Shown piece after piece: positions 1,766-24,659 of a DNA stretch of 64,000 bases. The notes under the pieces are model-generated. The model did not search any database. It saw only the letters and a list, made by a program, of their open reading frames with translations, and had not been told where the DNA came from. The DNA is taken from positions 372,001 to 436,000 of the forward strand of contig NZ_JAMTCN010000001.1 of the NCBI RefSeq assembly GCF_024171865.1. Reading direction: 5' to 3'. A program made the translations under genes and the position numbers. Source of the DNA: Prauserella aidingensis (GTDB lineage: Bacteria > Actinomycetota > Actinomycetes > Mycobacteriales > Pseudonocardiaceae). The stretch's first letter is position 1. Each line of letters starts with the position of its first letter.

Positions 1766-4579
<2,814 letters not shown>

Positions 4580-5993: not shown

Positions 5994-6554
5994 GTGATTC
6001 CCTCCGACGTCTTCCGCGACCTGCCAGTGCTGACCGATGACCGCGTCCGGCTCGTGCCGCTCGGCGAGGAGCATTTCGACGGGGTGCGCCGGATGCTCGA
6101 CGACCCGGAGGTCCGCAGGTTGACCGGGACGCACCACACGTTCACCGACGAGGAGGTGCGACGTCTCCTCGCCACCCGCTCCGACCACCACGACCGGGCG
6201 GACTGGGCCATCACCGACGCCGCCACGGGAGCGTTCCTGGGCGAGGCGGTGCTGCACGAGCTGGACCCGCCCAACGCCGCGGCGGGGTACCGCATCGCGC
6301 TGCTCGGGCCCGAGGCCTTCAGCCGCGGCTACGGCACGGCGTCGACCCGGCTGGTGCGCGACTACGCCTTCGACGTGGCCGGACTGCACCGGGTGGGACT
6401 CGAGGTGTTCGACTTCAACGTGCGTGCCCAGCGGGTCTACGAGAAGTGCGGGTTCGTCCGTGAAGGGATCCACCGCCAGGCGATCTGGTGGAACGGCATC
6501 TGGCACGACATGATCACGATGGGCATCGTCGCGAGCGATCCGCGTCCGGGGTGA
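5994..6554 (+). CDS. GNAT family N-acetyltransferase (RimJ/RimL-like)
   Basis: A 186-aa GNAT protein of the RimJ/RimL ribosomal-protein-alanine acetyltransferase group. Features are DDRVRLVPLGEEHFDGV near the N-terminus, the acetyl-CoA loop region LGPEAFSRGYGTASTRLVRDYAF (Q/R-x-x-G-x-G/A type), and the C-terminal motif RAQRVYEKCGFVREG. Acceptor specificity cannot be told from sequence; most such proteins act on N-termini or small amines. The GTG start at 5994 has no clear ribosome site. The last 41 bp overlap the convergent Ddn-like gene. Confidence 0.85.
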   Translation: MIPSDVFRDLPVLTDDRVRLVPLGEEHFDGVRRMLDDPEVRRLTGTHHTFTDEEVRRLLATRSDHHDRADWAITDAATGAFLGEAVLHELDPPNAAAGYRIALLGPEAFSRGYGTASTRLVRDYAFDVAGLHRVGLEVFDFNVRAQRVYEKCGFVREGIHRQAIWWNGIWHDMITMGIVASDPRPG

Positions 6555-7089
6555 GCACGAAGATCGGGAAGTCGCGGCCCGCCTCGTCGCGCTCCATGGC
6601 GTAACCGGGCCAGAAGCCGAGCAGCCGCCGCCACGTGGCCTCGCGGTCCAGACCGGTGAGTTCACGGGCGCGCACCGGGATGTCACGGCCACGCACGCGC
6701 ACCTGCGCGTCCGGCCGGGCGCGCAGGTTGAGCACCCACGCCGGGTCGTGGGGGCGGCCCCAGTTCGATCCGGTGACGACGAAGACCTCGTCGTCACCCA
6801 CCGTCTCTCCGGTGGCGCCTCCGCGGCAGCGTGCCCGGCCCACGCGGTGCGGGGTGCCGCGGTCGGGCATGTAGAGCAGGTTGCTCTCCCTCGGCCGGCC
6901 GGTCCGCCGTCCCGTCGTGATCAGCCGCAGCGACGGCAGACCGGCGATGCCGACCAGGCTCACCCGGCCCCGGGAGGCGCGATGCAGCCGGGTGTCGGCC
7001 CACACGACAGCCTCGGCGAGCTTCATCAACGACCGCCGCCGGCCGAGCAACCGCGCGACGGCGGGCAACGGGTTCCGCATACCGGACAT
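6514..7089 (-). CDS. F420H2-dependent nitroreductase/quinone reductase family (Ddn-like)
   Basis: A 191-aa member of the deazaflavin(F420)-dependent split-barrel family related to mycobacterial Ddn. Recognisable segments are LRLITTGRRTGRPRESNLLYM, then VFVVTGSNWGRPHDPAWVLNLRARPDAQV (core F420-binding/active-site region) and a C-terminal FPIFVLTP strand. Between the first two blocks sits an unusual 20-residue Arg/Gly-rich insertion after LLYMPDRG. Start 7089 is favoured by a GGGAA about 7 nt upstream; ATG 7080 is the alternative. It is transcribed in the same direction as the pyridine operon, 89 bp beyond nicE, so read-through is possible, but a functional link is not shown. Confidence 0.8.
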   Translation of the reverse strand: MSGMRNPLPAVARLLGRRRSLMKLAEAVVWADTRLHRASRGRVSLVGIAGLPSLRLITTGRRTGRPRESNLLYMPDRGTPHRVGRARCRGGATGETVGDDEVFVVTGSNWGRPHDPAWVLNLRARPDAQVRVRGRDIPVRARELTGLDREATWRRLLGFWPGYAMERDEAGRDFPIFVLTPDADRSRRCPS

Positions 7090-7178
7090 TCGACCATTCC
7101 CGGCAGCGGCACCGCACACCGGTTTTCCCGGGGCGGCCGCCGAAGGCGGAACACGTGGCCCGGTCGGTGACAGCGGCG

Positions 7179-7985
7179 TCAGGGGCTCACGGCGAGTTCG
7201 CCGCGCAGTAGGCGCCCCGCCTCGGGGATGGCGGGCGGGTGCCCCAGTGCGGTGAGTGTCTCGAACGCCGTCGCCGTGGCCGCCGTGACAACCGGAAGGC
7301 CGAGTTCCTGCTCCACGGCCTCGACCGCGTCCAGGGACGGCATCTGCACGCACGCCGACAGGACGACGGCCTCGGCCCCGTCCCGGTGCAGGCCTCGGGC
7401 TATCCCCGGCAGGTTTGCCTGGTCCAGCCTTCCGACCTCGAGGTTGTCCGGCACCTCGAGCGACACCGCGTCGAGCACTCGGACTCCCTCACCGTCGATG
7501 TAGGACCGCACCGTCTCCGTCAGCGGCGCCAGGTACGGCGTGACGATGGCGACCTGCCGCGCGCCGATCGCCCGCAACGTACGCACGAGCGCACCGGCGC
7601 TGCTCACGACCTCCGCGGGGTGACCGTTGTCGGCGGCCGCCCCACCGATCACCTTCTCCGACTCGACATGCGCGCCCGCCCCCTGTGCCATCACGGCGAC
7701 GAGGCACGCGTAGGCGATCGCGTCGACGTCGGCGTCCGACACCGCGGTCGCACAGTCGGCGGCCTTGTCCACCATGGCCAGCAGTTCGTCGCGGTTGACA
7801 TTGCGCATCCGCGCTCGCGCGGAGTGGAACGTGTACCGGTGGCCGGTGGCCTCGGTCTGCCGCCGGAACAACTCCGGCAGTTCGGTCTCCATCGTGGTGT
7901 TGGAGCTCGGGACGATCAGGCCGATACGGGACCGGCCCGTGGACTGCTGCTCGGGAGACTGGGACTCGGCGGACACTGCGTTCAT
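7179..7985 (-). CDS. nicE: Maleate cis-trans isomerase
   Basis: A 268-aa Asp/Glu-racemase-superfamily enzyme that isomerises maleate to fumarate, the last step of the maleamate pathway for 2,5-dihydroxypyridine breakdown. Motifs are IGLIVPSSNTTMETELP near residue 21 and the two active-site cysteines in AYACLVAV (C94) and LSACVQMPSLDAV (C212). Their spacing of 118 residues equals that of the characterised maleate isomerase cysteines (recalled as C76/C194). Its ATG overlaps the stop of the Mo-hydroxylase large subunit by 4 bp (ATGA). It is the last gene of the 11-gene operon. Arylmalonate decarboxylase is a structural relative but is excluded by motif and context. Confidence 0.9.
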   Translation of the reverse strand: MNAVSAESQSPEQQSTGRSRIGLIVPSSNTTMETELPELFRRQTEATGHRYTFHSARARMRNVNRDELLAMVDKAADCATAVSDADVDAIAYACLVAVMAQGAGAHVESEKVIGGAAADNGHPAEVVSSAGALVRTLRAIGARQVAIVTPYLAPLTETVRSYIDGEGVRVLDAVSLEVPDNLEVGRLDQANLPGIARGLHRDGAEAVVLSACVQMPSLDAVEAVEQELGLPVVTAATATAFETLTALGHPPAIPEAGRLLRGELAVSP

Positions 7986-10429
7986 CGGAATTCGACTCCT
8001 TGGTCGGAGGGGCCCGTACCGGCGGGGTCGGGCGCTGCTGGTTCGGGAGAGGCGGGTTCGGACACTGCGGCGAGCGCCCGCCAGACGGTTTCGGGCGTGA
8101 TCGGGAGGCTGTCGAGATCGACGCCGTACTCGGCCAGCGCATCGCACACGGCGTTGGCGACGGCGGCACCCGGCGGGATCGTGCCGACCTCGCCCACACC
8201 GCGAATGCCGAACGGAGTGACCGGCGACGGCACCTCGGTGTGCAGCAGTTCCATCGACGGCAGGTCGGCCGCCGTGGGCACGAAGTAGTCCATCATCGAC
8301 CCGTTGATCAGCTGCCCGGTCTCGGGGTCGTAGCGGAGTTCCTCGCTCAGCGCGGCGCCGAATCCCTGAGCCAGCGCGCCGCGCACCTGACCGTCGACGA
8401 TCTTCGGGTTCACCACGGTGCCCGCGTCGTGGACCATCACGAACCGTTCGACGTCGAACTCCCCCGTCTCGGGATCGACCGACACCGCGGCGGCGGCCGT
8501 CCCGAACGAGTACGCGGCGTCGGCGGGTTCGAAGTGCGCGGTCGCCTCCAGGCCCGGGTCCTCCTCCGGCGGGATGCCCTGGCCGGTGATCGCCACGGTG
8601 TACAGGTCCGCCAACGTCGCGGCCACGTCGCCGTCGCGGCGATGCCGGACGACCGAGCCGGCGATCTCAAGGTCCTCCTCGGCGACCTCCAGCCGCCACG
8701 CCGCCAGCCGCAGGGTCTTGGCGGCCAGCGCGTGCGCGGCCTCGCGCAGCGCTCCCGCCGCGGCGATCATCGTGCGGGAGGCGAACGACCCCGTGTTCAG
8801 CGGCGAGGCCGCCGTGTCACCGGCGTGGACCCGCACCAGGTCGTAGTCGGTGCCGAACACCTCCGCCACGACCTGCGCGAACGCCGTCTCGCTGCTCTGT
8901 CCGATGCTGGAGACACCCGTGTACACGTCGATCCCGCCGGAACGGTTGGCGCGCAACGTCACGCTCTCGTGCGCGCCGAACTGTGAACCGCGTTTGGCGA
9001 GGAACCGCGCGCTCGCGTAGCCGGTGCGCTCGACGAACGAGGAGAAGCCGATACCGACGAGACGGCCGTCCTCGCGCGGCGTGCGCGAGTGGCCGCGGTG
9101 TTCGGCCCAGCCGATCCGCTCGGCCGCCATGCGCAAGCAATGTTCGTAGTCACCGCTGTCGTACACCGCACCGGACGGGTTTCGCCACGGCAATTCCCGC
9201 GGAGTGAGCATGTTCCGTGCGCGCAGCTCGACGGGGTCGAGGTCGAGGCGCCGCGCGAGCCGGTCCATGAGCCGTTCGTAGGCGAAGTTCACCTCGGGCT
9301 GGCCGTAACCGCGGTAGGCCCCGATCGGGGTCTTGTTGGTCAGCGTGACGCGGCGTTCGGTGTAGCCGTCCTCGACCCGGTAGGGACCGTTGAACACCAC
9401 ACTGGACAGTTGTGCCGATCCGAACGGTGAGTTCCAGCCGCCGATGTCGGTGGCGTAGACGTCGGTCATCGCCAGGATCGTGCCGTCAGCGGCAGCGGCG
9501 ATGCGGTAGTCGTGCACCGACTCCCGTGCATGGGTGCTGGCTCGGAAGTGCTCGGCGCGGTCCTCGCTCCACTTCACGGGGCGGCGCAGGGCCATCGCGT
9601 GCAGGCAGGCGAGCACGTCCTCGGGAAACACGCCCAGTTTGAGCCCGAAACCGCCCCCGACGTCCGAGGCCACCGTGCGGATGTCGCTCTCGGACAGTCG
9701 GAGCGATTCGGCGAGCTGCTTACGCACCAGGTGCGGCACCTGGGTCGAGCAGTGCACGACCAGTTCGCGCGCGCCCGGCCGCCACTGCGCGACGACACCG
9801 CGGGTCTCCATCGGCAACGCGGTGACCCTGCCGATGCGGAACCGCCCCTCCTCCACGACGTCCGCCTCGGCCAGCCGTGCGTCCGGGTCTCCGCTGCCGC
9901 TGGAGTTGGCGGCGAGGAGGTTCGACTCCAGCACGGACGGATGCAGCACGGGAGCGTCCGGTTCGAGTGCCGCGAGCACGTCGGTGACGTGCGGCAGCGG
10001 TTCGTAGGTGATCTCGAGTGCCTCGACCGCATCCTCGGCGACGTGCCTGCTCGTGGCGACGACGCTGGCCACCGGCTGGCCCTCGTGCGTGGCCACGTCC
10101 TGCGCCAGCGCGTAGTACGGCAGCGTCGGCGCACCCGGTACGGGGCGCAGCACCGTGATCGGGTCGCTGAGCCTGCGCAGCGTGGCCGGGTCGAGTACGT
10201 GCTCGACACCGTCCATCCGATCGGCGGCGCTCGTGTCGACGGACGTGATCCTGGCGTGGGGGTACGGACAGCGTGCGACCGCCATGTACAGGACTCGCGC
10301 CGGCTCGACGTCGTCGGTGAACCGGCCGTCACCCCGGACCAGCCGCTCGTCCTCCTTGCGCGAGAGCGACGCGCCGAGGCTGCCACCCGCCACGGCGGTC
10401 TGTTCTCGCGAGTCCTCCAGTGCCGTCAT
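7982..10429 (-). CDS. Molybdenum hydroxylase large (Mo-pterin) subunit
   Basis: An 815-aa xanthine-dehydrogenase-family catalytic subunit that binds the molybdopterin cytosine dinucleotide cofactor and inserts water-derived oxygen into an N-heteroaromatic ring. The N-terminal domain SLSRKEDERLVRGDGRFTDD is the hallmark of CoxL/NdhL-type subunits. Later blocks include VGGGFGLKLGVFPEDV, KTPIGAYRGYGQPE (Mo-pterin loop) and the catalytic glutamate E747 in RGVGEVGTIPPGAA. CoxL-specific active-site Cys (AYRCSFR motif) is absent and AYRGYGQ is present, so it is not CO dehydrogenase. ATGA overlaps link it to genes on both sides. Context (NicX, NicD, NicF, NicE) points to a hydroxypyridine substrate giving 2,5-dihydroxypyridine. 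Confidence 0.92.
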   Translation of the reverse strand: MTALEDSREQTAVAGGSLGASLSRKEDERLVRGDGRFTDDVEPARVLYMAVARCPYPHARITSVDTSAADRMDGVEHVLDPATLRRLSDPITVLRPVPGAPTLPYYALAQDVATHEGQPVASVVATSRHVAEDAVEALEITYEPLPHVTDVLAALEPDAPVLHPSVLESNLLAANSSGSGDPDARLAEADVVEEGRFRIGRVTALPMETRGVVAQWRPGARELVVHCSTQVPHLVRKQLAESLRLSESDIRTVASDVGGGFGLKLGVFPEDVLACLHAMALRRPVKWSEDRAEHFRASTHARESVHDYRIAAAADGTILAMTDVYATDIGGWNSPFGSAQLSSVVFNGPYRVEDGYTERRVTLTNKTPIGAYRGYGQPEVNFAYERLMDRLARRLDLDPVELRARNMLTPRELPWRNPSGAVYDSGDYEHCLRMAAERIGWAEHRGHSRTPREDGRLVGIGFSSFVERTGYASARFLAKRGSQFGAHESVTLRANRSGGIDVYTGVSSIGQSSETAFAQVVAEVFGTDYDLVRVHAGDTAASPLNTGSFASRTMIAAAGALREAAHALAAKTLRLAAWRLEVAEEDLEIAGSVVRHRRDGDVAATLADLYTVAITGQGIPPEEDPGLEATAHFEPADAAYSFGTAAAAVSVDPETGEFDVERFVMVHDAGTVVNPKIVDGQVRGALAQGFGAALSEELRYDPETGQLINGSMMDYFVPTAADLPSMELLHTEVPSPVTPFGIRGVGEVGTIPPGAAVANAVCDALAEYGVDLDSLPITPETVWRALAAVSEPASPEPAAPDPAGTGPSDQGVEFR

Positions 10430-10980
10430 ACCGACCTCACCTCTCCGCCGGATCCGGCTTGTTGCGGGTGTTCGGCGAACCAGCGTTCGATCGCCGACAC
10501 GACGTTCTCGTAGCCGGTGCAGCGGCACAGCACACCCGCGATCTCCTCGCGGATCTCGCCCCGTGACGGGCAACCACCCTGGTATCCGAGTGCCGTCGCG
10601 GTCATCAGGAAGCCCGGGGAGCAGAAGCCGCACTGCAGTCCGTGCTCGTCGGACAGCGCCTGTTGCACCGGAGCGAGCTCGTCGCCCGCCAGTGACTCGA
10701 CGGTCTGCACGCTCCGGCCGTCGAGCTGGCACGCGAGCATGAGGCAGCTCTTCACGGCCTCACCGTCGACGACCACCGTGCACATGCCGCAGGATCCCTG
10801 CTCACAGCCGAGATGCGTGCCGGTGAGCCCGAGGTGCTGCCGGAGAAAGTCCGCCACGTGCAGCCGGGGTGGCACCTGCGTGCGCACCGCATCACCGTTG
10901 ACCGTCGTGTCCAGTTCCACGAGTGCCGCGGGCGCGTGCTCGCCGTCCGTCCCGCCGTGGCTCGTCGCCGTTTCCGTCAT
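10426..10980 (-). CDS. Molybdenum hydroxylase small [2Fe-2S] subunit
   Basis: A 184-aa electron-transfer subunit carrying two [2Fe-2S] clusters. The N-terminal plant-type ferredoxin motif is visible as GCEQGSCGMCTVVVDG with a fourth Cys in VKSCLML. The C-terminal four-helix cluster motif is CGFCSPGFLMT plus CRCTGY. A 20-residue polar N-terminal extension precedes the conserved domain. It passes electrons from the Mo centre to the FAD subunit encoded 3.2 kb upstream in the same operon; the usual adjacent FAD gene is separated here by nicX, nicD, the HD gene and the SRPBCC gene. It overlaps nicX and the large subunit by 4 bp each. Confidence 0.93.
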   Translation of the reverse strand: MTETATSHGGTDGEHAPAALVELDTTVNGDAVRTQVPPRLHVADFLRQHLGLTGTHLGCEQGSCGMCTVVVDGEAVKSCLMLACQLDGRSVQTVESLAGDELAPVQQALSDEHGLQCGFCSPGFLMTATALGYQGGCPSRGEIREEIAGVLCRCTGYENVVSAIERWFAEHPQQAGSGGEVRSV

Positions 10981-12023
10981 CGCTTGTCCGCGGGCCGCAT
11001 CTCCGACACCGTGAGCTCACCGGCGTCGACGATCAGCTCGTCGTCGAGGTAGAGGCTGTTGCCGCGCATAGGAATGTCGAAGTGGCACGGCGTGTCGTTG
11101 GGACCGCCGAGCTCGTTGTTCGGGCCGATGGAGAACATCACGTTGCCGTAGAAACTGCGCAGTTCCATGCCCATGCCGCCGGGGAACTGGGTCAGCCCGT
11201 GCCAGTGGGCGCGTTCGTCGAGGCCCCAGCCGACGTGGCTCATCCCGTAACCGCGCGGGTCGTCGAACGACTTGATGTAGGACGCGAGCAGTTCGGCATC
11301 CAACCCCGACGAACCGGCGCCGCCGCGGATGTCCTGGATGAAGCCCTGCTCGATGGTGATCTCCACGGGCGTCTGCACGTAGGTGTTGAACGGCAGCAGC
11401 ACGTCCCCCGGGGCGAGCACGATCTTGCCGTCGACGCCGTCGTCGGCACCGCCGGTGAACACGAATGCGGCGGGCCAGTGGTCCCAGCGGCCCGGGGTGT
11501 CGGTGTAGCCGTACTCCGACATCGTCGGGTACACGCCGAGCCGGTAGGTCACATCGGTGCCGTGCGGGCTGGTGATGCGCATGGTCTGTGCCTTGGCCAG
11601 CAGCTCCGCGCCGGTCTCGACCCGCTCGCGCAGCTCCTTGGTCGGCATCAGCCGTGCCAGCAGTTCGGGCGGTTCGACCGCCGTCAGGATGCGCGTACCG
11701 GCGTCCTGGATTTCGAACTGTTCCTTCGAGAACAGGAGGAACGTGCAGTCCACGACCATGTCGACGGCCTTCAGCGCTTCGACGGCGTGCCGGTTGCCCG
11801 CCAGTCCGGAGTCGCCCACCGCCCACGCGCCGGAGGCGTTGACGGGCGCCGGCATCCGCAGATGGAACGCCTGGGCGCCGAGTTGGCGAGCCGCCCACAG
11901 GAACGCGTCGGCGTACTCGCCGCGTTCGGACCCGCGGGTCAGCACGGCGACCGTCTCCCCCTCGTGCACACCGGAGAAGGTCAGCTGTCGCAGGCAGATG
12001 TCGTTGAACAGGTTCTGGTCCAT
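10977..12023 (-). CDS. nicX: 2,5-dihydroxypyridine 5,6-dioxygenase
   Basis: A 348-aa non-haem Fe(II) extradiol-type dioxygenase that opens 2,5-dihydroxypyridine with O2 to N-formylmaleamate. It aligns well with remembered Pseudomonas putida NicX: ILTAVEPPELLARLMPT, SEYGYTDTPGRWDHWPA, FYGNVMFSIGPNNELGG and the C-terminal PCHFDIPMR block. The metal ligands H265, H318 and D320 of NicX correspond to H263 (MSHVGWG), H314 and D316 (CHFD). Length equals the family. AGGAGAG precedes the ATG. The presence of NicX fixes the pathway intermediate of this operon, since the leucyl-aminopeptidase-like M29 relatives lack the GRWDHWP block. Confidence 0.93.
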   Translation of the reverse strand: MDQNLFNDICLRQLTFSGVHEGETVAVLTRGSERGEYADAFLWAARQLGAQAFHLRMPAPVNASGAWAVGDSGLAGNRHAVEALKAVDMVVDCTFLLFSKEQFEIQDAGTRILTAVEPPELLARLMPTKELRERVETGAELLAKAQTMRITSPHGTDVTYRLGVYPTMSEYGYTDTPGRWDHWPAAFVFTGGADDGVDGKIVLAPGDVLLPFNTYVQTPVEITIEQGFIQDIRGGAGSSGLDAELLASYIKSFDDPRGYGMSHVGWGLDERAHWHGLTQFPGGMGMELRSFYGNVMFSIGPNNELGGPNDTPCHFDIPMRGNSLYLDDELIVDAGELTVSEMRPADKR

Positions 12024-12035
12024 GATGGTTCTCTC

Positions 12036-12863
12036 CTACTCCGGACGGGTCGCCGTCACGTGGGGCCGGACGGCATCGAGAAAGCCGGTGGGGTTGTCCC
12101 AGGGCACCATGTGGCCCGCCCCGGGAACGGTCAGCAGTGGGATCTCGGGACGCGTGCGGGTCAGTTCCTCCGCTGCGCGGGGTGGGACGACGGGGCTGTC
12201 GCCGCCCCGGACGAGCGCCACCGGCGCGGTGACCTTCGCCCAGTACTCGAAGAAGTCCTCGCGTTCGAACCCCGCGTGGGTCTCGACGACGGCGGTCTCG
12301 TCGCACGTGGCCAGCACCTCGGCACGCAGGCGCAGTTCGCGTTCGGGCCAGGCCGGGTAGAACCTCCGCACCTCGTCGGCGGTCGTGCCGCGCTGCGCCT
12401 CGCGCAGCTGTTCGAGAAACGCCTTGCGGGAGGTCGGATACGGGTCCCGACCGGGACCGGATGTCGGCGGGTCCACCAGGACGAGCGGCCCGTGGCCGCC
12501 GGGCGCGTGCAGCACCGCGTAGGCGGCCGCGATCCGCGCGCCCATCGAGTGTCCGATCACGGCCGGTGACGCCAGGTCCAGTGCCTCGACCAGGCCCGCG
12601 ACGTCGGCGGCGTAGTCGGTGAGCCGGTAGCCGCCCGAAGGGCCGCGGTCACTGTCTCCCCTGCCGCGAACGTCCGGCACCGTCACCCGGAAACCCCACT
12701 CGGCCAACCGCACCGCGACGAAATCCGCGGTGACGGCCGGACTGGTGATGCCGGGCAGCAACAGCAGGTCCGGATCTCCGGTGTCGCCGTAGCGCAGCAC
12801 GTGGTGGCGCAGCCCGTTGGCGTCGGCGAAGGCGCTCTCCCCCGCGATGTCGATCGTGCTCAT
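12036..12863 (-). CDS. nicD: N-formylmaleamate deformylase (alpha/beta hydrolase)
   Basis: A 275-aa alpha/beta hydrolase removing formate from N-formylmaleamate to give maleamate. Catalytic residues are readable: nucleophile S106 in GHSMGAR, acid D131 in VLVDPPTSGPGR, and H251 in GAGHMVPWDNP. The spacing S to D (25) and S to H (145) matches remembered P. putida NicD (S101, D125, H245; 24 and 144). The unusual acid position after strand 6 and the DPPTSGPGR motif separate it from generic esterases. GGAGGAGTG precedes the start. It sits 12 bp upstream of nicX and 5 bp downstream of the HD gene. Confidence 0.9.
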   Translation of the reverse strand: MSTIDIAGESAFADANGLRHHVLRYGDTGDPDLLLLPGITSPAVTADFVAVRLAEWGFRVTVPDVRGRGDSDRGPSGGYRLTDYAADVAGLVEALDLASPAVIGHSMGARIAAAYAVLHAPGGHGPLVLVDPPTSGPGRDPYPTSRKAFLEQLREAQRGTTADEVRRFYPAWPERELRLRAEVLATCDETAVVETHAGFEREDFFEYWAKVTAPVALVRGGDSPVVPPRAAEELTRTRPEIPLLTVPGAGHMVPWDNPTGFLDAVRPHVTATRPE

Positions 12864-12868
12864 CGTGG

Positions 12869-13465
12869 TCACTCCTCCTCCGGCAACCGGGCGGACGCCC
12901 AGTCCAGCCATTCCGCGACATGGCCCTGCGCGGCGGGCACGCGCACCCGCTCGGCCATGTACTGCAACTTGGCGGCCGCTTTCTCCCGGGAGCACGCGCC
13001 GCTCGTGACCCAGCCGGCCGTCAGGTCGGCGAGGGTTTCCAGGAAGGACAGTGAGTCGGCGGCCTGCAGTTCGTCGCCGCCGCTCAGGCCGCCGACCTCG
13101 TGCAGGCCGACGAGCCTGCGCACCTCCGCCACGTCCACCTCGGCAGCCACGGGCCCGACGCCACCGAGCCACACGGTGACCGCATCCGCGGACCGCAGGC
13201 TGTGCGCGAACAGGTAGAACGGGTCGTCCCAGTCCGTGTTCGCATGGTCCAGAACCGGCCCGCCGGGGAACATCCGCTCGATGTCGTGGGTGAGCGCGGC
13301 GAGGCGTGCCTCGGCCGTGGCGTCCGGGACGAGGTGCACGAGCCAGTCGCGCGCCCGGCGCAGGTGCAGTTCCTGGCCGTACGGTGCGATCCACCCGGTC
13401 GCCAGTCGTTCGACCTCGGTGCCCGGCGCGAGGGCGGGCGGCGCCCACGGGGTCACGGAGGTCAT
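12869..13465 (-). CDS. HD-domain-like protein of the pyridine operon, possible phosphohydrolase
   Basis: A 198-aa soluble protein. I do not recognise a named family, but the pattern fits the HD metal-dependent phosphohydrolase fold: H34 (QELHLRRARDWL), the doublet H60-D61 (LTHDIERMF), H88 with AHSLRSADAV, H122 (VGLHEVGG) and D137 (ELQAADSLSF). These are the usual metal-binding positions in order. Both neighbours are tightly coupled (ATGA overlap with the SRPBCC gene; 5 bp to nicD), so it belongs to the pathway. I infer it could remove a phosphate from a phosphorylated pyridine intermediate made by the PEP-synthase-like pair in the same operon. A structural or regulatory role is the alternative. 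Confidence 0.75.
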   Translation of the reverse strand: MTSVTPWAPPALAPGTEVERLATGWIAPYGQELHLRRARDWLVHLVPDATAEARLAALTHDIERMFPGGPVLDHANTDWDDPFYLFAHSLRSADAVTVWLGGVGPVAAEVDVAEVRRLVGLHEVGGLSGGDELQAADSLSFLETLADLTAGWVTSGACSREKAAAKLQYMAERVRVPAAQGHVAEWLDWASARLPEEE

Positions 13466-14136
13466 GACCGCCCCCGCCCCATGCTGTGCCCGAGTGCGAC
13501 GAGTCCGACGGCCAGGGACGCGGCGCTCAGCGCGGCCGCGACCTTCGCCCACCGCTCGGCGGCGGCCGATTCGGGGGCATGTCCGGGTTCGGCGATCTGT
13601 CGGACGGAACGGTCGCGGTCGCCTGTCGCCACCTCCCGTGCGCCGCCCGGCGTGTCCGCGGCCAGGGCCGGTGACGGCCGCTGCGGCGTCTCACCGCCGA
13701 GGGCGGCCTCGAGGTTGCGCGCGAACTCCGCGGTGACCTTGCCCGCCTGTTTCGCGACGACCTTCTGCCCGACACTGCCGAGCGCGCCCGCCAGTGCCAC
13801 GTCGCCGTCGACGACCACGGTCGTACCGTCGCCGCCGGGCTCCAGTTCGACGGCGACCGAAGCCCGCACGTTGCCCATCGCGCCGCGCACCGTCTTGCCG
13901 GTCGCCGTGAACGCGACCCGTTTCTCCGGCACCCGCTCCACGATCGTCAGGTCGGCCGCGAACGTCGCCGACATCGGGCCGACGCTCTGCGTCACCCGCA
14001 CCCGCAGCTCGTCCGGACCGGACATGCTCAGGTCCTCGACACCCGGCATGCACTTCGCGACCAGTTCCGGCTGGTCCACGAAGTTCCACACCTCGGCCAC
14101 AGGGCGTCCGAGGCGGAACTCTTCCCGCAGTTTCAT
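13462..14136 (-). CDS. SRPBCC (CoxG-like) subunit/assembly factor of the Mo hydroxylase, membrane-anchored
   Basis: A 224-aa protein. Residues 1-145 form an SRPBCC/CoxG domain (MKLREEFRLGRPVAEVWNF, then KCMPGVEDL, and a C-terminal helix GQKVVAKQAGKVTAEFARNL). A Pro/Asp-rich linker follows, and residues about 190-217 are a hydrophobic helix (AAALSAASLAVGLVALG), suggesting a C-terminal membrane anchor as in CoxG. CoxG-type proteins recruit Mo hydroxylases to the membrane or serve as substrate-delivery domains. In the Ensifer 3-hydroxypyridine dehydrogenase an SRPBCC component is reported (from memory) to be a separate subunit, as here. It overlaps both neighbours by 4 bp. Confidence 0.88.
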   Translation of the reverse strand: MKLREEFRLGRPVAEVWNFVDQPELVAKCMPGVEDLSMSGPDELRVRVTQSVGPMSATFAADLTIVERVPEKRVAFTATGKTVRGAMGNVRASVAVELEPGGDGTTVVVDGDVALAGALGSVGQKVVAKQAGKVTAEFARNLEAALGGETPQRPSPALAADTPGGAREVATGDRDRSVRQIAEPGHAPESAAAERWAKVAAALSAASLAVGLVALGHSMGRGRS

Positions 14137-15020
14137 GGTGTCCCCTCCCCCCACGCCTGCCGGGCGTGGGACTCGCGCAGTTCGGTGAGCACTCTGCGCA
14201 CGTACACGGGCAGCAGATGGCGGCGGTACTCCGCACTCGCGCGGATGTCCGACGGCGGATCGGCGACCTCGAGCGCGGCGTCGGACGCAGCCGCCACGTC
14301 GGCGTCACGAAGTTCCGTACCCTCGAGCCGGTCGGCGGACGCGGTGGCGAGCACGGGGGTGTCGGCCACGCCGCCCAGCGCGATCCGAACGTCCCGCCAC
14401 CGGCCACCGTCGTCGCGGCTGCCCGCGGCAGCCACGCTGACGACGGCGAAATCGTTGTGTTTGCGGCACAGTTCCCGGAAGGCGACCGCCTCGGCCGGTG
14501 GTGGGAACTCGACCGCGACGACCAGTTCCCGGGGATCGACCGCGGTGGCGTACGAGCCCTCGTACAGCTCGTCGACCGGGATCCGGCGGACACCCTCCGG
14601 ACCGGCGGCTACCACCACCGCGTCGAGGGTGAGGCACGCCAGCGGCAGCTCACCGGTCGGATCGGCGTGCACCAGAGCCCCGCCGACCGTGCCGCGGTTG
14701 CGCACCTGCCGGTCTCCGATGTGCCGCACGATCCGCGGCAGCAGCGGCAGTCGCCGTGCCAGCAGGGAGGAACGCTCCACGGTGGAGTACCGGACGAGTG
14801 ATCCGATGGTCACGCGGTCGCCGTCGGCGACGATGTCGTCGAGTTCGTCGATCTCGTTGATGTCGACGATCGCGTCCGGCCGCCACAGCCGCATGTTCAG
14901 CATCGGCACCAGGCTCTGTCCTCCGGCCAGTACCCGCGCGGTTCCCGGGTAGTCGCCGAGTGTGGCTACGGCGTCGGCCACCGACCGAGGCCGGTGGTAC
15001 TCGAACGGGGCCGGTTTCAT
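14133..15020 (-). CDS. Molybdenum hydroxylase medium (FAD) subunit
   Basis: A 295-aa CoxM/NdhM-type flavoprotein subunit that takes electrons from the [2Fe-2S] subunit. FAD-binding motifs are ARVLAGGQSLVPMLNMRLW (about residues 30-48) and RNRGTVGGALVHADPTGELP (about 106-126). The C-terminal CO-dehydrogenase-flavoprotein domain is complete (VYVRRVLTEL). The start ATG overlaps the stop of the PpsB-like gene (ATGA). It is separated from the large and small subunit genes by five genes, an unusual order for the family but consistent with one co-regulated operon. Confidence 0.92.
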   Translation of the reverse strand: MKPAPFEYHRPRSVADAVATLGDYPGTARVLAGGQSLVPMLNMRLWRPDAIVDINEIDELDDIVADGDRVTIGSLVRYSTVERSSLLARRLPLLPRIVRHIGDRQVRNRGTVGGALVHADPTGELPLACLTLDAVVVAAGPEGVRRIPVDELYEGSYATAVDPRELVVAVEFPPPAEAVAFRELCRKHNDFAVVSVAAAGSRDDGGRWRDVRIALGGVADTPVLATASADRLEGTELRDADVAAASDAALEVADPPSDIRASAEYRRHLLPVYVRRVLTELRESHARQAWGEGTP

Positions 15021-16102
15021 GCGCCGCCGCTCCCCCGCACGACCCGCTGCCCGGCGAACCGCGCGAGCACCCGGTCGACCGGCGACTTGCGGTCGCCGAC
15101 CAGTTGCTCGGTCCCGCGCCTGCTCCACACCGTCTCCGGGCGCACCTGCAGCACGCGCACCTCACCGTGCTCGCCGACAGCCCACTCGATGTCCTGTGGC
15201 GCGCCGCGGTGCCGTTCGATCCGCTTCGCCAGCTCGGCGAGCGCGTGGAGCTGCTCGTCGGTCACGCACGGCTGCGAGCGCAGTTCGTCAGCCACCTCGA
15301 CCAGCGCCACTTCGCCGCATCCGGGATCGAAGGCGAACTTGGATTCCTGCTCGACGATGTCCCGGTCGAGCACTTCGAAGGTGACCTTGTCGACGCGGTA
15401 CCGGCTCGGGGTGATCCCGCCGCTGACGACGCCCTCACCGAGTCCCCAGCATCCTTCGACGACGACCTTCGAGCGATCGCCGCTGACCGGGTCGAGGGTG
15501 AACATCACCCCGGCCGACCGTGCGGCCACCATCTGCTGGACACCGACGCAGATGCCCAGATCGGAGGGCGGAGGCTTCTCGTCCTCGGTACGGTATGTCA
15601 GCACCGCCTCACCGAACATGCCCGCCCAGCAGCGCCGCACATGCCGGAGCAGCTCCTCGACGCCGCGGATCCACAGGAACGTGTCGTACTGGCCCGCGAA
15701 GCTCGCGCCCGCGAGGTCCTCGGACTCACCGCTCGAGCGTACGGCGACAGGTACATCGACCTGTCCTGAACGCGTGCCGAGCTCGGCGTACGCCTCGCAC
15801 ACCGCGGTCTCCAGTTCCGGCGGCAGCGGCGCGGACTCGATCTCAGCGGTCAGTCCGGCGCTGATCTCCCGGATCTCCGACAGCTCGGCGTTCGCTGCCT
15901 GGCTGCGTGCCTCCTCGGCGCGCCGTGTCAGTCCCGCCGCGTCGAGGAACCGTCGGTAGGCGCCGGTGGTGATCCCGAATCCGGGCGGCACCTCGAAGCG
16001 GGCCGCGTGCATGTCCGCGAGGCTGCCGAACTTGCCGCCCAGCAGCCGGTTCCCCGGTGCCTCGGGGTCGTCGATCCACAGTACGTGCGGGGTGGTGGTC
16101 AT
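15017..16102 (-). CDS. PEP synthase/PPDK N-terminal (ATP-grasp) domain protein, phenylphosphate synthase beta-like
   Basis: A 361-aa stand-alone pyruvate phosphate dikinase ATP-binding domain. ATP-grasp features are LLGGKFGSLADMHAARFEVPPGF, VAVRSSGESEDLAGASFAGQYDT and the C-terminal HRGAPQDIEWAV...VLQVRPETVW. It lacks the phospho-histidine and PEP-binding domains of full-length PEP synthase (about 800 aa); the phospho-His domain is on the next gene upstream. Size and split match the beta subunit of phenylphosphate synthase (about 40 kDa), which together with the alpha subunit transfers the beta-phosphate of ATP to phenol. Inference: it charges the His-domain partner to phosphorylate the hydroxypyridine OH. 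A role in Mo-enzyme maturation is the alternative. Confidence 0.85.
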   Translation of the reverse strand: MTTTPHVLWIDDPEAPGNRLLGGKFGSLADMHAARFEVPPGFGITTGAYRRFLDAAGLTRRAEEARSQAANAELSEIREISAGLTAEIESAPLPPELETAVCEAYAELGTRSGQVDVPVAVRSSGESEDLAGASFAGQYDTFLWIRGVEELLRHVRRCWAGMFGEAVLTYRTEDEKPPPSDLGICVGVQQMVAARSAGVMFTLDPVSGDRSKVVVEGCWGLGEGVVSGGITPSRYRVDKVTFEVLDRDIVEQESKFAFDPGCGEVALVEVADELRSQPCVTDEQLHALAELAKRIERHRGAPQDIEWAVGEHGEVRVLQVRPETVWSRRGTEQLVGDRKSPVDRVLARFAGQRVVRGSGGA

Positions 16103-17982
16103 GCGGATGCCTCCTCGATGACACGGACGACGCCGGTGCCGCCGTCCACTTCGATGAGCTGACCGGTCTCGATGGACGTCGTCGCGAAGCCCGTGCCGAC
16201 CACCGAGGGCAGGCCATACTCGCGGCAGATGATCGCGGTGTGCGCCATGATGCCGCCGACGTCGGAGACGGCGGCCGACAAGCGGGAGAACACCGGGGCC
16301 CAGCTCGGCGCGGTGATGCGGCAGACGAGGATGTCCCCGTCCTCCACCAGGTGCAGGTCCTCGGGGTCGAGGATCACGCGTGCCTTTCCGACGGCTGAAC
16401 CCGCCGAGGCGGCGACGCCACGCAGCTGCCCGTCGTCGGCCCCGTCCTCGCCACCGGTGCCCAGCCATTCGTCGATCGACTGCTGCGTGATGCCCCAGAG
16501 CATCACCGTCAGCGGTTCGGTGATGAACTCCGGCGGCACCCCGAGCGCCGGCTGCGGCGGGTGGGCCTTCAGCACGTCCCGAATGCGGCGGCGGCGCTCG
16601 ACCTCCGGCCGCCAGTACGTCACGCCCCTGGCCTCGGCATCGGTCGCCCACCCGATGATCAGGTCGTAGAGCGCGGAATAGATCTCGTTGCGGTGCAGGT
16701 AGAAGATGTCCTCGCGGTCGTCGAGGAAGTCGTGTGCGACGAACACGTCGCCGAGCTCCCGTACCTTCGAGAAGAACAGCGTGTGGTGCCAGTGTTCGAC
16801 GTAGAAGTTGTGGTTCTCGACGAACGGGAACACCTTCCGTGCCAGCTCGATCAGGCCGTCGAACTCCTCGCGGTCGGCCTCGGTCGGCAGGTAGCCGCGG
16901 TACTCCTCGGTGATGCGGCTGCGTTCGGCGAGGATCGACTCGAGCGGGCGGTCGATCTCCTCACCATCGAGCAGGTTCTTGATGTAGCCCCGCATCGCGG
17001 TGAACGGCAGGCGTAGATCGTCGATCCACGCCCGGTCGCTGTGCGTGTAGCCCGCGCCGGTCGAGAACCAGAACCACGGGTCCTGCGCCTCCTCGAACGC
17101 CTCGATCCACCGTGGACCGTTGGGGTGGGCCCGTACCGCCGCGATCGCGGCGTCCGGATCCTCCGTACCCAGCAGCTGGTCCGTCACACCGAGCTCGACG
17201 GCCAATCGCGCCAGCTTGCGCAGCTCGTCGTCCGGACGGAACAGCAGGATGTCGATGCCCGACACCATCTTCGCCAGCGTCTGATCGGTGATCCCGGGGA
17301 ATGCGGCCTGGCAGAATTCCTGGAACGTGAGATAGGCGCCGTAACCGAGGTTGAGCATCTCGAAGTGGTAGGAGCCCATCTCGAACAGGTTGTGGATGAG
17401 TTCGCCGTACTTCGTGAGGAGCTCGTAGCTCGAGTACGTCCCGCGGTGGGATAGCACGCTCTCGAGGGGCTCCCGGTCCGGCAGTGGCCGGAACTCGATC
17501 GCCTTGAGCCGCTTGATGCAGTCGGTGGCCTTTGCCTCCCACTCCTCGTAGATCTCGTCCCAGTTCTCGTAGTAGTGGCCGGCACGTTCCGAGAACTCCT
17601 CGGCCCGGCGGGCGATCTCGTCCGGGTCGGTGACCGCACTCGGGCTGATGTAGAGGTACCCGTTGATGATCCGGTGCTCGATGCCGCCCGCGGGCGGGAC
17701 CGGCCAGACCCGCGTGGACATCTGACTGGCGGCCACCCACCAGTTCTCGGTCATGATGGTGTCGAACGGGTACAGCGGTTCGGGGTTGTGCATCCCGTCG
17801 AAGAACCAGAACTTGCCGTCCTCGCTCTCGGCGCGTTCCTCGCTCAACAGCGCGTAGTAGGGGTACATGCTCTGCCAGCCTTCGGCCCCTTCCGGAGTCC
17901 GGATCGCGAACGGACTCGCGAACCGTTCACCGGGAACGGCTTCGGCCGGGGTCGTATCCGGGTGGGAATCAGCCAGTGTCAT
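16099..17982 (-). CDS. PEP-utilising (phospho-His) protein, phenylphosphate synthase alpha-like
   Basis: A 627-aa soluble protein with two parts. Residues about 1-500 are an aromatic-rich domain (FWFFDGMHNPEPLYPFDT, TRVWPVPPAGGIEHRIING, WHHTLFFSKVRELG) resembling the substrate domain of phenylphosphate synthase alpha and related split PEP synthases. Residues about 530-620 are the PEP-utiliser mobile domain with the phosphorylatable His in DVGGIMAHTAIICREYGLP (H581). No ATP-grasp domain is present; it is supplied by the 361-aa partner, with a 4-bp overlap. The start is supported by GGAGGCG upstream. I infer phosphorylation of the hydroxypyridine. Rifampicin phosphotransferase has a different single-chain order and is less likely. 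Confidence 0.85.
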   Translation of the reverse strand: MTLADSHPDTTPAEAVPGERFASPFAIRTPEGAEGWQSMYPYYALLSEERAESEDGKFWFFDGMHNPEPLYPFDTIMTENWWVAASQMSTRVWPVPPAGGIEHRIINGYLYISPSAVTDPDEIARRAEEFSERAGHYYENWDEIYEEWEAKATDCIKRLKAIEFRPLPDREPLESVLSHRGTYSSYELLTKYGELIHNLFEMGSYHFEMLNLGYGAYLTFQEFCQAAFPGITDQTLAKMVSGIDILLFRPDDELRKLARLAVELGVTDQLLGTEDPDAAIAAVRAHPNGPRWIEAFEEAQDPWFWFSTGAGYTHSDRAWIDDLRLPFTAMRGYIKNLLDGEEIDRPLESILAERSRITEEYRGYLPTEADREEFDGLIELARKVFPFVENHNFYVEHWHHTLFFSKVRELGDVFVAHDFLDDREDIFYLHRNEIYSALYDLIIGWATDAEARGVTYWRPEVERRRRIRDVLKAHPPQPALGVPPEFITEPLTVMLWGITQQSIDEWLGTGGEDGADDGQLRGVAASAGSAVGKARVILDPEDLHLVEDGDILVCRITAPSWAPVFSRLSAAVSDVGGIMAHTAIICREYGLPSVVGTGFATTSIETGQLIEVDGGTGVVRVIEEASA

Positions 17983-18071
17983 GGGTACGCCTCCGCCTGG
18001 GATCGGGTCGTGGAACTGCGCTCGCGCAGCGGTCTCCGGTCAGGGCCGGGATGCTGAGGAATTCGGGATGG

Positions 18072-18734
18072 TCAGGGCCTCGGGGTATCGAGAGTTGCGA
18101 GATAGCTGAGGACATCGGCGACCTCGACGACGTCGCCGTACTTCTGATCGATGTCGAACAGGTTCGCCTCGTGGGGTTCCTGAGCTCTGTCGGCGACGCA
18201 CTCGCGGGGAACGAGTACCGGGTAGCCGTACTGGACCGCGTCCACGACGGTCGCCCTGACACAGCCGCTGGTCGTCGCCCCGGCCACGACGACCGTGTCC
18301 ACTCCGGACGCGGCGAGGTAGGACGACAGTGCGGTACCGAAGAACGCCGACGCTCCGGTCTTGACGACGAGGTGCTCGTCCGGCCGCGGTTCGAGCCGGT
18401 CGTCGATCTCGACGAGCCTGCTGCCCACTTCGAGGGCCCGCATGCCGGTGGCCTTCTTCAGCCAGGTCAGGGTGTCCCGCTGCGCCGGGTCGTAGGCGAT
18501 GGTCGTGAACACCACCGGCAGGTCCGCTGCACGTGCAGCGTCGAGCAACCGGGCGGTCGCCGCGATCTCGCCGGACATGTCGGAGCCCGTAGGGCTCGCC
18601 GGGTCGGTGAAGCCGTAGGAGAAGTCGACCACCACCACCGCCGGGCGGGCGCCACGCTCCACCGGCCTGCCGAAACCGGCCCGGTCGTAGACGTGGTCGG
18701 TCGTGTGTGTGCCTGCCACGGCGGCTCCCTTCAT
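18072..18734 (-). CDS. nicF: Maleamate amidohydrolase (isochorismatase-like cysteine hydrolase)
   Basis: A 220-aa isochorismatase-fold amidase converting maleamate to maleate plus ammonia. The cysteine-hydrolase triad is visible: D37 (VVVVDFSYGFTDP), K125 (LVVKTGASAFFGT) and C158 (GATTSGCVRATVVDAVQYGY). The start at 18734 has a strong GGAGGT 6 nt upstream. It is the first gene of the operon; 89 bp, with a small CTGCG-CGCAG hairpin, separate it from the PpsA-like gene. Other isochorismatase-type amidases (nicotinamidase, carbamoylsarcosine amidase) share the triad, so the assignment rests on co-occurrence with nicX, nicD and nicE. Confidence 0.87.
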   Translation of the reverse strand: MKGAAVAGTHTTDHVYDRAGFGRPVERGARPAVVVVDFSYGFTDPASPTGSDMSGEIAATARLLDAARAADLPVVFTTIAYDPAQRDTLTWLKKATGMRALEVGSRLVEIDDRLEPRPDEHLVVKTGASAFFGTALSSYLAASGVDTVVVAGATTSGCVRATVVDAVQYGYPVLVPRECVADRAQEPHEANLFDIDQKYGDVVEVADVLSYLATLDTPRP

Positions 18735-18756
18735 TGGAACACCTCCGCCAGTTTGC

Positions 18757-18770
18757 ATACCGGTATACCA
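18757..18770. promoter_or_regulatory. Putative GntR operator at the nicF promoter
   Basis: Two overlapping perfect palindromes, ATACCGGTAT (18757-18766) and GGTATACC (18762-18769), lie 23-36 bp upstream of nicF. CGGTATACCA resembles the FadR/VanR-subfamily GntR box (T-x-GTATAC-x-A type, from memory). On the minus strand TATACC could be the -10, so binding would block transcription. The gene-free 18735-19027 stretch also carries the divergent regulator promoter. Confidence 0.6.
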
Positions 18771-19027
18771 TTTTGGCAAGAGGTGTTTCCCGTTCGAACC
18801 GATGATGACCGAGTCTGCCCCTCCCGTCCGGATCCGGGAATCCCTCCGGCGCATCCGCAACGCAGCCGTCATCAATCGTCATCGCCGCGTCACACGAACC
18901 TCCGTCGTACGGGCCCTGCCGCACCGGGCCGGTACGATCACCGGATGCCGCGGGCAACTCTGCGGCGAACGCGATGCGATGTCAGACGACGTGTGGCGAC
19001 GAACTAGGCGCGAGGACGGAGCGACGA

Positions 19028-19714
19028 ATGCAGCAACCGGGACGCGGCGCGATCCCCTTGTCCCAGCGGACGAGCGAGGGTGTCGCACGCGTGCTGCGTT
19101 CGGAGATCTTCTCCGGCGAGCTGAAGCCCGGGGAACCGCTGCGGGAGAGACTCCTCGCGGAACAGCTCGGAGTCAGCCGGACCCCGGTACGCGAAGCACT
19201 GTTCACGCTGCAGAGCGAAGGACTGATCGAACTCACGCCCAACCGGGGCGCGACCGTCCGCACCATCACCTCCCACGACATCATGCAGGTCTACACGCTG
19301 CGCGAGGTGCTGGAGTCGTACGCGGCGAAGGAGGCGGCCACCGGCCGGACCGAAGACGACCTCGAGGCCCTCGAGGACGCCCACGCAAAGCTGGTCCGCA
19401 TCTCACCCAGCGGGAACGCGAGCCAGCAGGCGATAGCCGATCTCGCCTTCCACACGCTGGTCGCCGAGGCCACGGGCAGTCGGATGCTCCAGACGACGAT
19501 GGGACACGTCCTCGCGTTCACGGTGAGCTTCCGGTCGAACTACTCCTACCCCGCCGAGCGCTCGGCCATCGCGGTCGAACAGCACCGGGCTGTGCTCGAC
19601 GCCATCCACGCCCGGGACGCCGCGGGCGCGGAGCGCCTCATGCGCGAACACGTCGAATCGGCGCGGCTGTTCGCCGTCCAGCATTTCGAACGACTGCAGG
19701 ACGCCGACACGTAG
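19028..19714 (+). CDS. GntR family (FadR subfamily) transcriptional regulator of the pyridine operon
   Basis: A 228-aa regulator. The N-terminal winged HTH spans about residues 10-75 ([36 protein letters not shown]), and the C-terminal FCD all-helical ligand domain has the acidic/His pattern DLAFHTLVAEATGS and EQHRAVLDAI, typical of metal plus carboxylate binding. ATG 19028 is preceded by GAGGACGGAG. It is divergent from nicF across 293 bp containing a GntR-like palindrome, so it most probably represses the operon and responds to a pathway acid such as maleamate, maleate or fumarate, or to the pyridine itself (inference). Confidence 0.88.
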   Translation: MQQPGRGAIPLSQRTSEGVARVLRSEIFSGELKPGEPLRERLLAEQLGVSRTPVREALFTLQSEGLIELTPNRGATVRTITSHDIMQVYTLREVLESYAAKEAATGRTEDDLEALEDAHAKLVRISPSGNASQQAIADLAFHTLVAEATGSRMLQTTMGHVLAFTVSFRSNYSYPAERSAIAVEQHRAVLDAIHARDAAGAERLMREHVESARLFAVQHFERLQDADT

Positions 19715-19737
19715 ACACCGAGTGCAGGACACGCGGC

Positions 19738-21479: not shown

Positions 21480-21482
21480 CGC

Positions 21483-22883: not shown

Positions 22884-22989
22884 GTTTCCTCCTCGAACGG
22901 GACTGGCTCGAACGGGCCTGTGGGATGGGCGGGACACGGACGGGACAGCCGTGGCGACCGTCCCGGCGACGCCGGCCGGCCGCCACGGG

Positions 22990-24480: not shown

Positions 24481-24606
24481 GCGACCACCGCATCCGCTCG
24501 AGGACCGTCGGTGTCGGACGCTACCGGCGCCCACCGACAATCGCAGCCTTACGCGCTCGCCGGGGCGCGCCGCGGATGCCGCGGGGCGGGCGCGACACGC
24601 CCCTCC

Positions 24607-24622
24607 CAGTACGTACGTACGG
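24607..24622 (+). promoter_or_regulatory. AcnR-like operator upstream of acnR
   Basis: CAGTACGTACGTACGG matches the AcnR box CAGNACnnncGTACTG at all defined positions but one (TG read as GG). It lies 38 bp before the acnR start. It matches the site in the acn promoter (1652-1667) in layout, suggesting autoregulation of the unlinked repressor gene. Confidence 0.6.
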
Positions 24623-24659
24623 TTTGCATCCGGTGCACACGCGGTGTCAAGATCGGTGA

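Follow-up and report, generated by a model that had tools for sequence, protein, structure and literature searches.

A candidate phosphate-tagged route for 3-hydroxypyridine breakdown in an eleven-gene operon of Prauserella aidingensis

An operon of eleven genes

The actinomycete Prauserella aidingensis carries on contig NZ_JAMTCN010000001.1 a cluster of eleven genes that is a candidate for the breakdown of 3-hydroxypyridine. The cluster was analyzed in a stretch of 64,000 nucleotides (the window, to which all positions refer), where it occupies 18734–7179 on the minus strand. From 5′ to 3′, the genes are nicF, a phosphoenolpyruvate (PEP)-utiliser, PPDK-N, the flavin adenine dinucleotide (FAD) subunit of a molybdenum hydroxylase, CoxG/SRPBCC, a 198-residue HD protein, nicD, nicX, the 2Fe-2S and molybdopterin (Mo-pterin) subunits of the hydroxylase, and nicE. 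An earlier note, made from the sequence alone, had described an eleven-gene operon joined nearly throughout by 4-bp overlaps. The eleven minus-strand genes were confirmed, and such overlaps occur at 8 of the 10 junctions, the exceptions being nicF/PEP-utiliser (+89 bp) and nicD/nicX (+12 bp). The overlap between the HD gene and nicD depends on a GTG start at 12872; with the ATG at 12863 as the start, the two genes would instead be slightly apart. A Pfam scan of ten of the eleven proteins gave matches for eight (isochorismatase, PEP-utilizers, PPDK_N, FAD_binding_5/CO_deh_flav_C, COXG, abhydrolase, Fer2/Fer2_2 and MoCoBD) and none for the HD protein or NicX.

NicX, NicD, NicF and NicE convert 2,5-dihydroxypyridine in turn to N-formylmaleamate, maleamate, maleate and fumarate. 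Homologues of all four, which the earlier note had recognized, are encoded here. The NicF-like maleamate amidohydrolase (18072–18734, 220 residues) has an isochorismatase fold (Pfam Isochorismatase, E-value 4e-40), and its best PDB match is 4l07 (E 2e-75), with 3ot4 and 3uao also found. The NicD-like N-formylmaleamate deformylase (12036–12872; 278 residues, or 275 from the ATG at 12863) is an alpha/beta hydrolase (Abhydrolase_1, 4.9e-23), and the NicE-like maleate isomerase (7179–7985, 268 residues) matches 4fq7 (E 1.1e-65) and 2xec (E 1.7e-60). The NicX-like 2,5-dihydroxypyridine 5,6-dioxygenase (10977–12023, 348 residues), the only NicX in the host genome, has the Pseudomonas putida enzyme as its closest structure (7cn3, E 8.9e-88). 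In P. putida NicX, the iron is held by His265, Ser302, His318 and Asp320, the substrate is contacted by Glu177 and His189, and His105, a further substrate contact, is essential (PMC7910607). The earlier claim that all catalytic residues are in place was nearly right: the four iron ligands and the equivalents of Glu177 and His189 are retained, and only position 105 differs, as taken up below.

The NicX/D/E/F enzymes also serve nicotinate degradation, and a pathway for nicotinate or 2-hydroxypyridine would account for this part of the operon. The window shares these lower-pathway enzymes with the nic nicotinate clusters, and two of the three annotated plasmid NicX clusters inspected (L032 and L035) have an annotated FAD monooxygenase adjoining NicX. 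However, no NicC-type monooxygenase or diiron hydroxylase is found among the window's eleven genes (ten of the proteins scanned by Pfam), and 2-hydroxypyridine would require β-hydroxylation to become 2,5-dihydroxypyridine. The nicotinate pathway was rejected for lack of a NicC-like gene, and either substrate is very unlikely. The annotated plasmid places with NicX (L032, L034 and L035) list no dikinase among their genes; a fourth place inspected, L033, is without annotation. NicX was also tried and rejected as a marker of the system: 208 plasmid records have NicX, and none of the 223 plasmid records matching the 627-residue dikinase subunit reaches 60% identity.

The molybdenum hydroxylase comes in four separate parts, as had been proposed, and Pfam confirmed each family. 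They are the molybdopterin subunit (7982–10429, 815 residues; MoCoBD_1/2), the [2Fe-2S] subunit (10426–10980, 184 residues; Fer2_2 3.4e-25, Fer2 9.4e-9), the FAD subunit (14133–15020, 295 residues; FAD_binding_5 and CO_deh_flav_C) and an SRPBCC protein (13462–14136, 224 residues) that proved to be CoxG (COXG 2.2e-20; CoxG structure 8uds, E 1.4e-17). The best PDB match of the molybdopterin subunit is quinoline 2-oxidoreductase (1t3q, E 2.9e-145), with the CO dehydrogenases behind it, and the subunit's GVGE aligns with GMGE of 1t3q, so that the GxGE glutamate, which has a role in molybdenum hydroxylases, is kept. Quinoline 2-oxidoreductase hydroxylates the carbon adjoining the ring nitrogen. The combination of a Mo/FeS/FAD enzyme with a CoxG partner resembles Mo-CO dehydrogenase (8uem, 8uds), in which CoxG mediates electron transfer to quinone, but the window's molybdopterin subunit is nearer to quinoline 2-oxidoreductase. 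A C-terminal hydrophobic segment is visible by hydropathy in the window's CoxG and occurs in 28 of the 33 complete copies from its clade (defined below). Elsewhere CoxG proteins serve as membrane anchors for enzymes, a role also proposed for the enzyme of Ensifer adhaerens HP1; in an archaeal case, quinone reduction did not need CoxG (PMC11962113). An XdhC/CoxI gene is present in the host genome.

The two genes behind nicF had been described as a split PEP synthase. The split is real: an ATP-grasp subunit (15017–16102, 361 residues; PPDK_N 7.8e-92, best PDB matches 9dae and 9goj) is separate from a swivel, or substrate, subunit (16099–17982, 627 residues; PEP-utilizers 3.9e-20, NF006153 807 bits), as in PpsAB, CreHI and HpeHI. 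These are two-component dikinases that phosphorylate phenolic compounds; HpeH is 71.1 kDa and HpeI 40.6 kDa, with a motif T/SxxGGxxxH in which the regulatory Thr is replaced by Met, two residues ahead of the His, and the phenolic dikinases are without the pyruvate-binding fold (PMC12167813). The window's swivel subunit has the motif S573DVGGIMAH581, with Met579 at −2 of the catalytic His581, and the His, GG and Met are kept in all 58 rows of its clade (46 distinct sequences). A PEP synthase, which would supply PEP from pyruvate while the host grows on C4 acids, would fit the ATP-grasp and swivel domains, both of which match PEP synthase profiles. However, Pfam found no pyruvate-binding domain in the pair, on which ground a true PEP synthase was rejected, and the Met at −2 in 58 of 58 clade rows is that of the phenolic dikinases (PMC12167813), so that this role is most improbable. 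The pair reads instead as a two-component aryl dikinase like PpsAB, CreHI and HpeHI, for which aryl phosphorylation is predicted. The main text of PMC12167813 does not contain the word “hydroxypyridine”.

The 198-residue protein (12869–13465) has no match in Pfam or NCBIfam at 0.01, and a search against PDB sequences gave nothing meaningful. A clade relative, that of L069, matches Pfam HD (0.0033) and DUF4202 (1.2e-6), both below the curated cut-off. H34, H60, D61, H88, H122 and D137 are invariant in 31 of 31 and again in 30 of 30 sequences, in agreement with the H...HD...H...H...D metal-ligand pattern of the HD superfamily. An AlphaFold2 model has a predicted local distance difference test score of 95.2, and its top PDB alignments with informative titles are HD-superfamily hydrolases. 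Fold and ligands bear out the earlier description of an HD protein, and the model supports assignment as an HD-fold metal phosphohydrolase, for which the role of pathway phosphatase is proposed. The earlier note had assigned no function to this protein, to the PEP-synthase pair or to the SRPBCC part.

Dikinase loci and the genes that accompany them

Genome contigs were searched with the 627-residue swivel protein; of 200 relatives, the best 80 were kept, giving 79 loci. In a tree of 89 rows, the 45 rows with at least 57% identity, window included, form one group with a Shimodaira–Hasegawa-like approximate likelihood ratio (SH-aLRT) support of 100, in which the window's sister is Amycolatopsis echigonensis (L036; support 98). 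The 79 loci are divided into 39 of the window's clade and 40 others. The clade loci carry PPDK (38), FAD (36), CoxG (34), NicF (30), HD (30), NicD, FeS and Mo (26 each), NicX (20) and NicE (18), where the FAD, FeS and Mo counts are taken from 45% identity and the cluster is often cut off by a contig end. At any identity, the 40 other loci have PPDK (39), FeS (4), Mo (3), FAD (3), CoxG (1) and NicD (1), and neither HD nor NicX. All eleven genes stand together in 16 of the 39 clade loci, and the grouping is therefore not due to chance.

Five clade loci (L057, L063, L064, L065 and L067) have the seven core genes without a neighboring NicX. NicX was also sought in whole genomes, with a cut-off of E 1e-30, for 30 of the clade loci and 36 of the others. 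It was found for 25 of the 30 clade loci and 1 of the 36 others (Fisher p 3e-12, a value that is too small since related genomes are not independent). The nine clade loci outside this test all have NicX on the locus itself, which brings the total to 34 of 39. NicX was missed in two Acidimicrobiia, L068 and L080, in which HD is missing as well, and in L042, L043 and L071, where the contig stops short of the expected NicX position. The five core loci without a neighboring NicX have a match elsewhere in the genome (G791 69%, G796 45%, G797 45%, G800 45% and G798 43%), and the iron ligands are kept in the two of these genomes where residues were checked (L159 in G791 and L167 in G796). Since NicX accompanies the clade genomes, including those of these five loci, the module most likely yields 2,5-dihydroxypyridine, on which NicX acts. 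In L069 and L070, both the swivel subunit and NicX occur in two copies, one of the NicX paralogues having 37% identity; that of L069 is altered at NicX sites. In L063 (8824–9813), L064 (7047–8072) and L068 (8952–9878), a gene of the polysaccharide deacetylase family lies immediately before the dikinase.

Within the 79 loci, the HD protein is confined to the clade, where 30 of 39 have it, against 0 of the 40 others. Seven of the nine clade loci without it lie on contigs that end in or just past the module genes, leaving 2 real absences in 32, again L068 and L080. In both, the opposite strand carries a HAD hydrolase gene (Hydrolase_6) some 6 kb ahead of the dikinase. A search of all 79 loci found this HAD family in exactly these two of the 39 clade loci and in 23 of the 40 others (L073–L112), in many of which the gene lies just before that of the swivel subunit. 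The clade-type HD protein and the HAD family never occur together: 30 loci have the first and 25 the second. Dikinase loci thus tend to carry either HD or HAD, although some of the 40 non-clade loci have neither, and because the two are complementary across the 79 loci, the HD protein is placed in the phosphatase's role. In the Hpe pathway, this role belongs to HpeD, which was shown to dephosphorylate pathway compounds and whose closest characterized homologue is NagD (PMC9618137). In the cre-type clusters of Rhodococcus, an HD protein stands in the position of creD, and CreD is listed as a phosphohydrolase (PMC7764795).

The HD protein might instead be a nucleotide phosphatase that clears the adenosine monophosphate (AMP) left by the dikinase, or a regulator, and its structural neighbors do include alarmone hydrolases and cyclic-nucleotide phosphodiesterases. 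However, it takes the place of the HAD family of the 23 other loci and is never found alongside it, and dikinase loci bearing HAD would need AMP clearing as well, which disfavors that role; either function is improbable.

Of 396 genomes from the phylum, three (G000, G111 and G320) have a strong match to the HD protein, and these are the same three that have a dikinase subunit of at least 57% identity, and four others (G002, G105, G286 and G376) give weaker matches to the HD profile. A megaplasmid of Thermomicrobium roseum (L115) has Mo/FeS/FAD genes, a distant dikinase and an HD protein with 46% identity, but its lower pathway differs, including genes for a fumarylacetoacetate hydrolase and a cyclase, perhaps for another substrate. 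The HAD family of the 23 non-clade loci, many of them in Chloroflexota and Actinomycetota, could itself serve as a marker for unexplored aryl-phosphate pathways.

A predicted phosphate-tagged pathway

Molybdenum hydroxylases of this type attack the carbon adjoining the ring nitrogen. As this attack must yield 2,5-dihydroxypyridine, the hydroxyl group of the substrate should be at C3, and the substrate would be 3-hydroxypyridine. The dikinase, the molybdenum hydroxylase and NicX therefore all point to this compound, whose phenol-like hydroxyl suits an aryl dikinase. The earlier note's inference of growth on 3-hydroxypyridine gains support from these comparisons: the molybdopterin subunit is nearest quinoline 2-oxidoreductase, NicX goes with the clade genomes far more than with the others, and a NicC-type gene is missing from the eleven. 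The operon is best read, at a probability of about 0.6, as encoding complete 3-hydroxypyridine breakdown in which a phosphate tag is put on, the ring is oxidized by the molybdenum enzyme, and the tag is taken off.

The first step would be phosphorylation of the ring hydroxyl by the two-component dikinase with adenosine triphosphate, giving 3-pyridyl phosphate. The Mo/FeS/FAD hydroxylase, whose class is recognizable from its sequence, would then hydroxylate C6, the carbon adjoining the ring nitrogen, while CoxG may dock it at the membrane and electrons would pass to quinone. The HD phosphohydrolase would remove the phosphate to give 2,5-dihydroxypyridine, after which, as their families suggest, NicX would open the ring to N-formylmaleamate, NicD would deformylate it, NicF would release ammonia, and NicE would turn maleate into fumarate. 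The proposed scheme follows the phosphorylate–oxidize–dephosphorylate logic by which the Cre pathway handles 4-cresol, with a molybdenum hydroxylase replacing the cytochrome P450. It is a more tentative proposal, with something just short of an even chance, that the dikinase pair, Mo, FeS, FAD and CoxG proteins and the HD protein form a portable seven-gene module, in which the true substrate of the molybdenum hydroxylase is the aryl phosphate of a hydroxy-N-heterocycle, oxidized at the membrane.

The tag may not be obligatory. The molybdenum hydroxylase could use free 3-hydroxypyridine, with the dikinase serving trapping, uptake or enzyme maturation and the HD protein being accessory. The closest solved molybdenum hydroxylase acts on an unphosphorylated heterocycle. 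Trapping or scavenging was also suggested as the reason for phosphorylation by the phenolic dikinases (PMC12167813). However, trapping too implies a phosphorylation and a phosphatase, which the complementarity of HD and HAD fits, and the next enzyme of the Hpe pathway acts solely on phosphorylated compounds (PMC9618137). A route through the free compound is thus rather unlikely, at well under an even chance, and the phosphate-tagged pathway remains the preferred reading.

Several observations weigh against the phosphate-tagged pathway. Phosphorylation of a hydroxypyridine is deduced here from gene comparison, and the literature searched, which was limited to open-licence papers and had the HP1 paper outside it, yielded nothing that connects hydroxypyridine with a dikinase or a pyridyl phosphate. 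The window's NicX has Phe at the position of His105, which is essential in P. putida. Phe stands there in every aligned row of at least 57% identity, including L032 and L035 with NicX beside an FAD monooxygenase, and is therefore not taken as a defect; four rows at 57–59% identity have Gln in place of Glu177. The strength of the NicX association is overstated by its p-value, as said above, and the lack of both NicX and HD in L068 and L080 suggests that part of the clade may use another substrate. Five of the 33 complete CoxG copies (L063, L064, L068, L070 and L080) have no membrane segment. HD proteins of another, cre-like type are found in 6 of the 40 non-clade loci (L091–L094, L096 and L102), and in L091 and L093 they stand beside HAD, so that two phosphatase candidates can occur at one locus. 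Finally, a single HHalign comparison of the HD set with the cre-type HD set gave a probability of only 26% (E 7e-4), although the ligand positions align, and orthology to CreD is accordingly not claimed.

L068 and L080 combine a clade dikinase with two molybdenum hydroxylase sets, the HAD phosphatase and a carbon–nitrogen hydrolase, perhaps for the same logic on another heterocycle.

The island, its regulator and related systems

Divergent from the operon is a gene for a GntR/FCD regulator (18974–19714, plus strand, 246 residues; Pfam GntR and FCD), which the earlier note's operon left out. Its orthologues lie close to the operon in relatives, with 81% identity in L036. In the family, 14 of 390 genomes, the host's among them, have the dikinase gene with an identity of at least 77%, and it is absent from all 6 other genomes of the genus examined. 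In these, the left flank reaches window positions 7128–7158 in four and 7074–7077 in two, the right flank resumes at 19718–19744, and the gap between them is 33–201 bp in five and about 1.0 kb in G653. Because the flanks nearly adjoin where the dikinase is lacking, the operon and regulator read as an acquired island of 12.6 kb (7131–19731). None of its twelve genes encodes a recombinase. An operator-like palindrome, ATACCGGTAT, lies upstream of nicF (18757–18766), at a site that is conserved in relatives that carry GntR. In a scan that listed the two best sites per sequence, 18 of 23 sequences, among them the proteobacterial L056 and L061, have a site like TGGTATACnnGTATnCCA, with at most two mismatches, whose start lies 26–82 bp upstream of nicF, a count made without a shuffled control. 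The regulator may act on this operator. A search for a hairpin in the nicF leader gave nothing above chance.

Adjoining the island on the right (19738–24666) are genes like those of an ergothioneine cluster (Methyltransf_33, class-II amidotransferase, FGE-sulfatase/DinB and GCS2), and on its left are an F420H2-dependent quinone reductase (6514–7353, minus strand) and an aconitase (1769–4579, plus strand).

Many relatives have an additional gene of the Amt family near the operon (22 of 39 clade loci, with some contigs stopping short), usually between GntR and nicF, as in L049 (7613–9028). All six of the proteins scanned match Ammonium_transp, and a search against PDB sequences gave no match at 1e-8. 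The first pore histidine is Tyr in all 22 copies of sufficient length (21 from clade loci and one from L161), and the second is Ala in 21 of 21 (one copy being truncated), while Asp160 (AmtB numbering) is kept. The window has no such gene, with only 239 bp between 18735 and 18973, and the sole match in the host genome is its canonical Amt, at 26% identity, which retains both pore histidines. The Amt-like protein may be a channel for something besides ammonium, possibly the heterocycle.

Wang et al. 2020 are said to have described in Ensifer adhaerens HP1 a 3hpd cluster with a four-part molybdenum dehydrogenase including a separate SRPBCC protein, PEP-utilizing and PPDK-like proteins and a route through 2,5-dihydroxypyridine; the study reportedly left the role of the PEP-utilizing and PPDK-like proteins open. 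The likeness noted earlier holds as far as these reported contents go, since the window has Mo, 2Fe-2S, FAD and separate SRPBCC genes in one cluster together with PEP-utilizing and PPDK-like genes, a likeness of gene content and not of sequence. According to PMC10117386, Wang et al. 2020 found the 3hpd cluster commonly, and with its genes in differing order, in groups that include Actinobacteria and Proteobacteria, so that an actinobacterial host is not new; PMC12016537 only cites Wang et al. 2020.

The Hpe pathway of Rhodococcus rhodochrous GD02 likewise begins with a two-component dikinase and closes its phosphate stage with a phosphatase, but it uses hydroxyphenylethanones, a carboxylase instead of a molybdenum hydroxylase, and a NagD-like phosphatase (PMC9618137, PMC12167813). 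The Cre pathway for 4-cresol in Corynebacterium glutamicum shares the dikinase, an oxidation step and a phosphohydrolase, CreD (PMC7764795); unlike the window it has a cytochrome P450, and the homology of the HD protein to CreD is too weak for orthology. PpsAB, the phenylphosphate synthase of Azoarcus KH32C, is also a two-part aryl dikinase, with 45.5% identity to the window's subunit, but it acts together with phenylphosphate carboxylase, so leading to carboxylation, and has a third, CBS subunit.

What the comparison suggests as new is the specific mechanism of phosphate tagging, molybdenum hydroxylation and tag removal. It gives the PEP-utilizing, PPDK-like and unnamed HD proteins definite, testable jobs, and genome searches for such pathways can use as markers the HD-or-HAD tendency together with the GntR site and the Amt-family gene. 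If true, the mechanism would answer the question left open on the first steps of the 3-hydroxypyridine pathway, add an HD phosphatase family that neither Pfam nor NCBIfam recognized here, and extend to N-heterocycles and molybdenum hydroxylases a phosphate-tag strategy known from the breakdown of phenol, cresol and hydroxyacetophenone.

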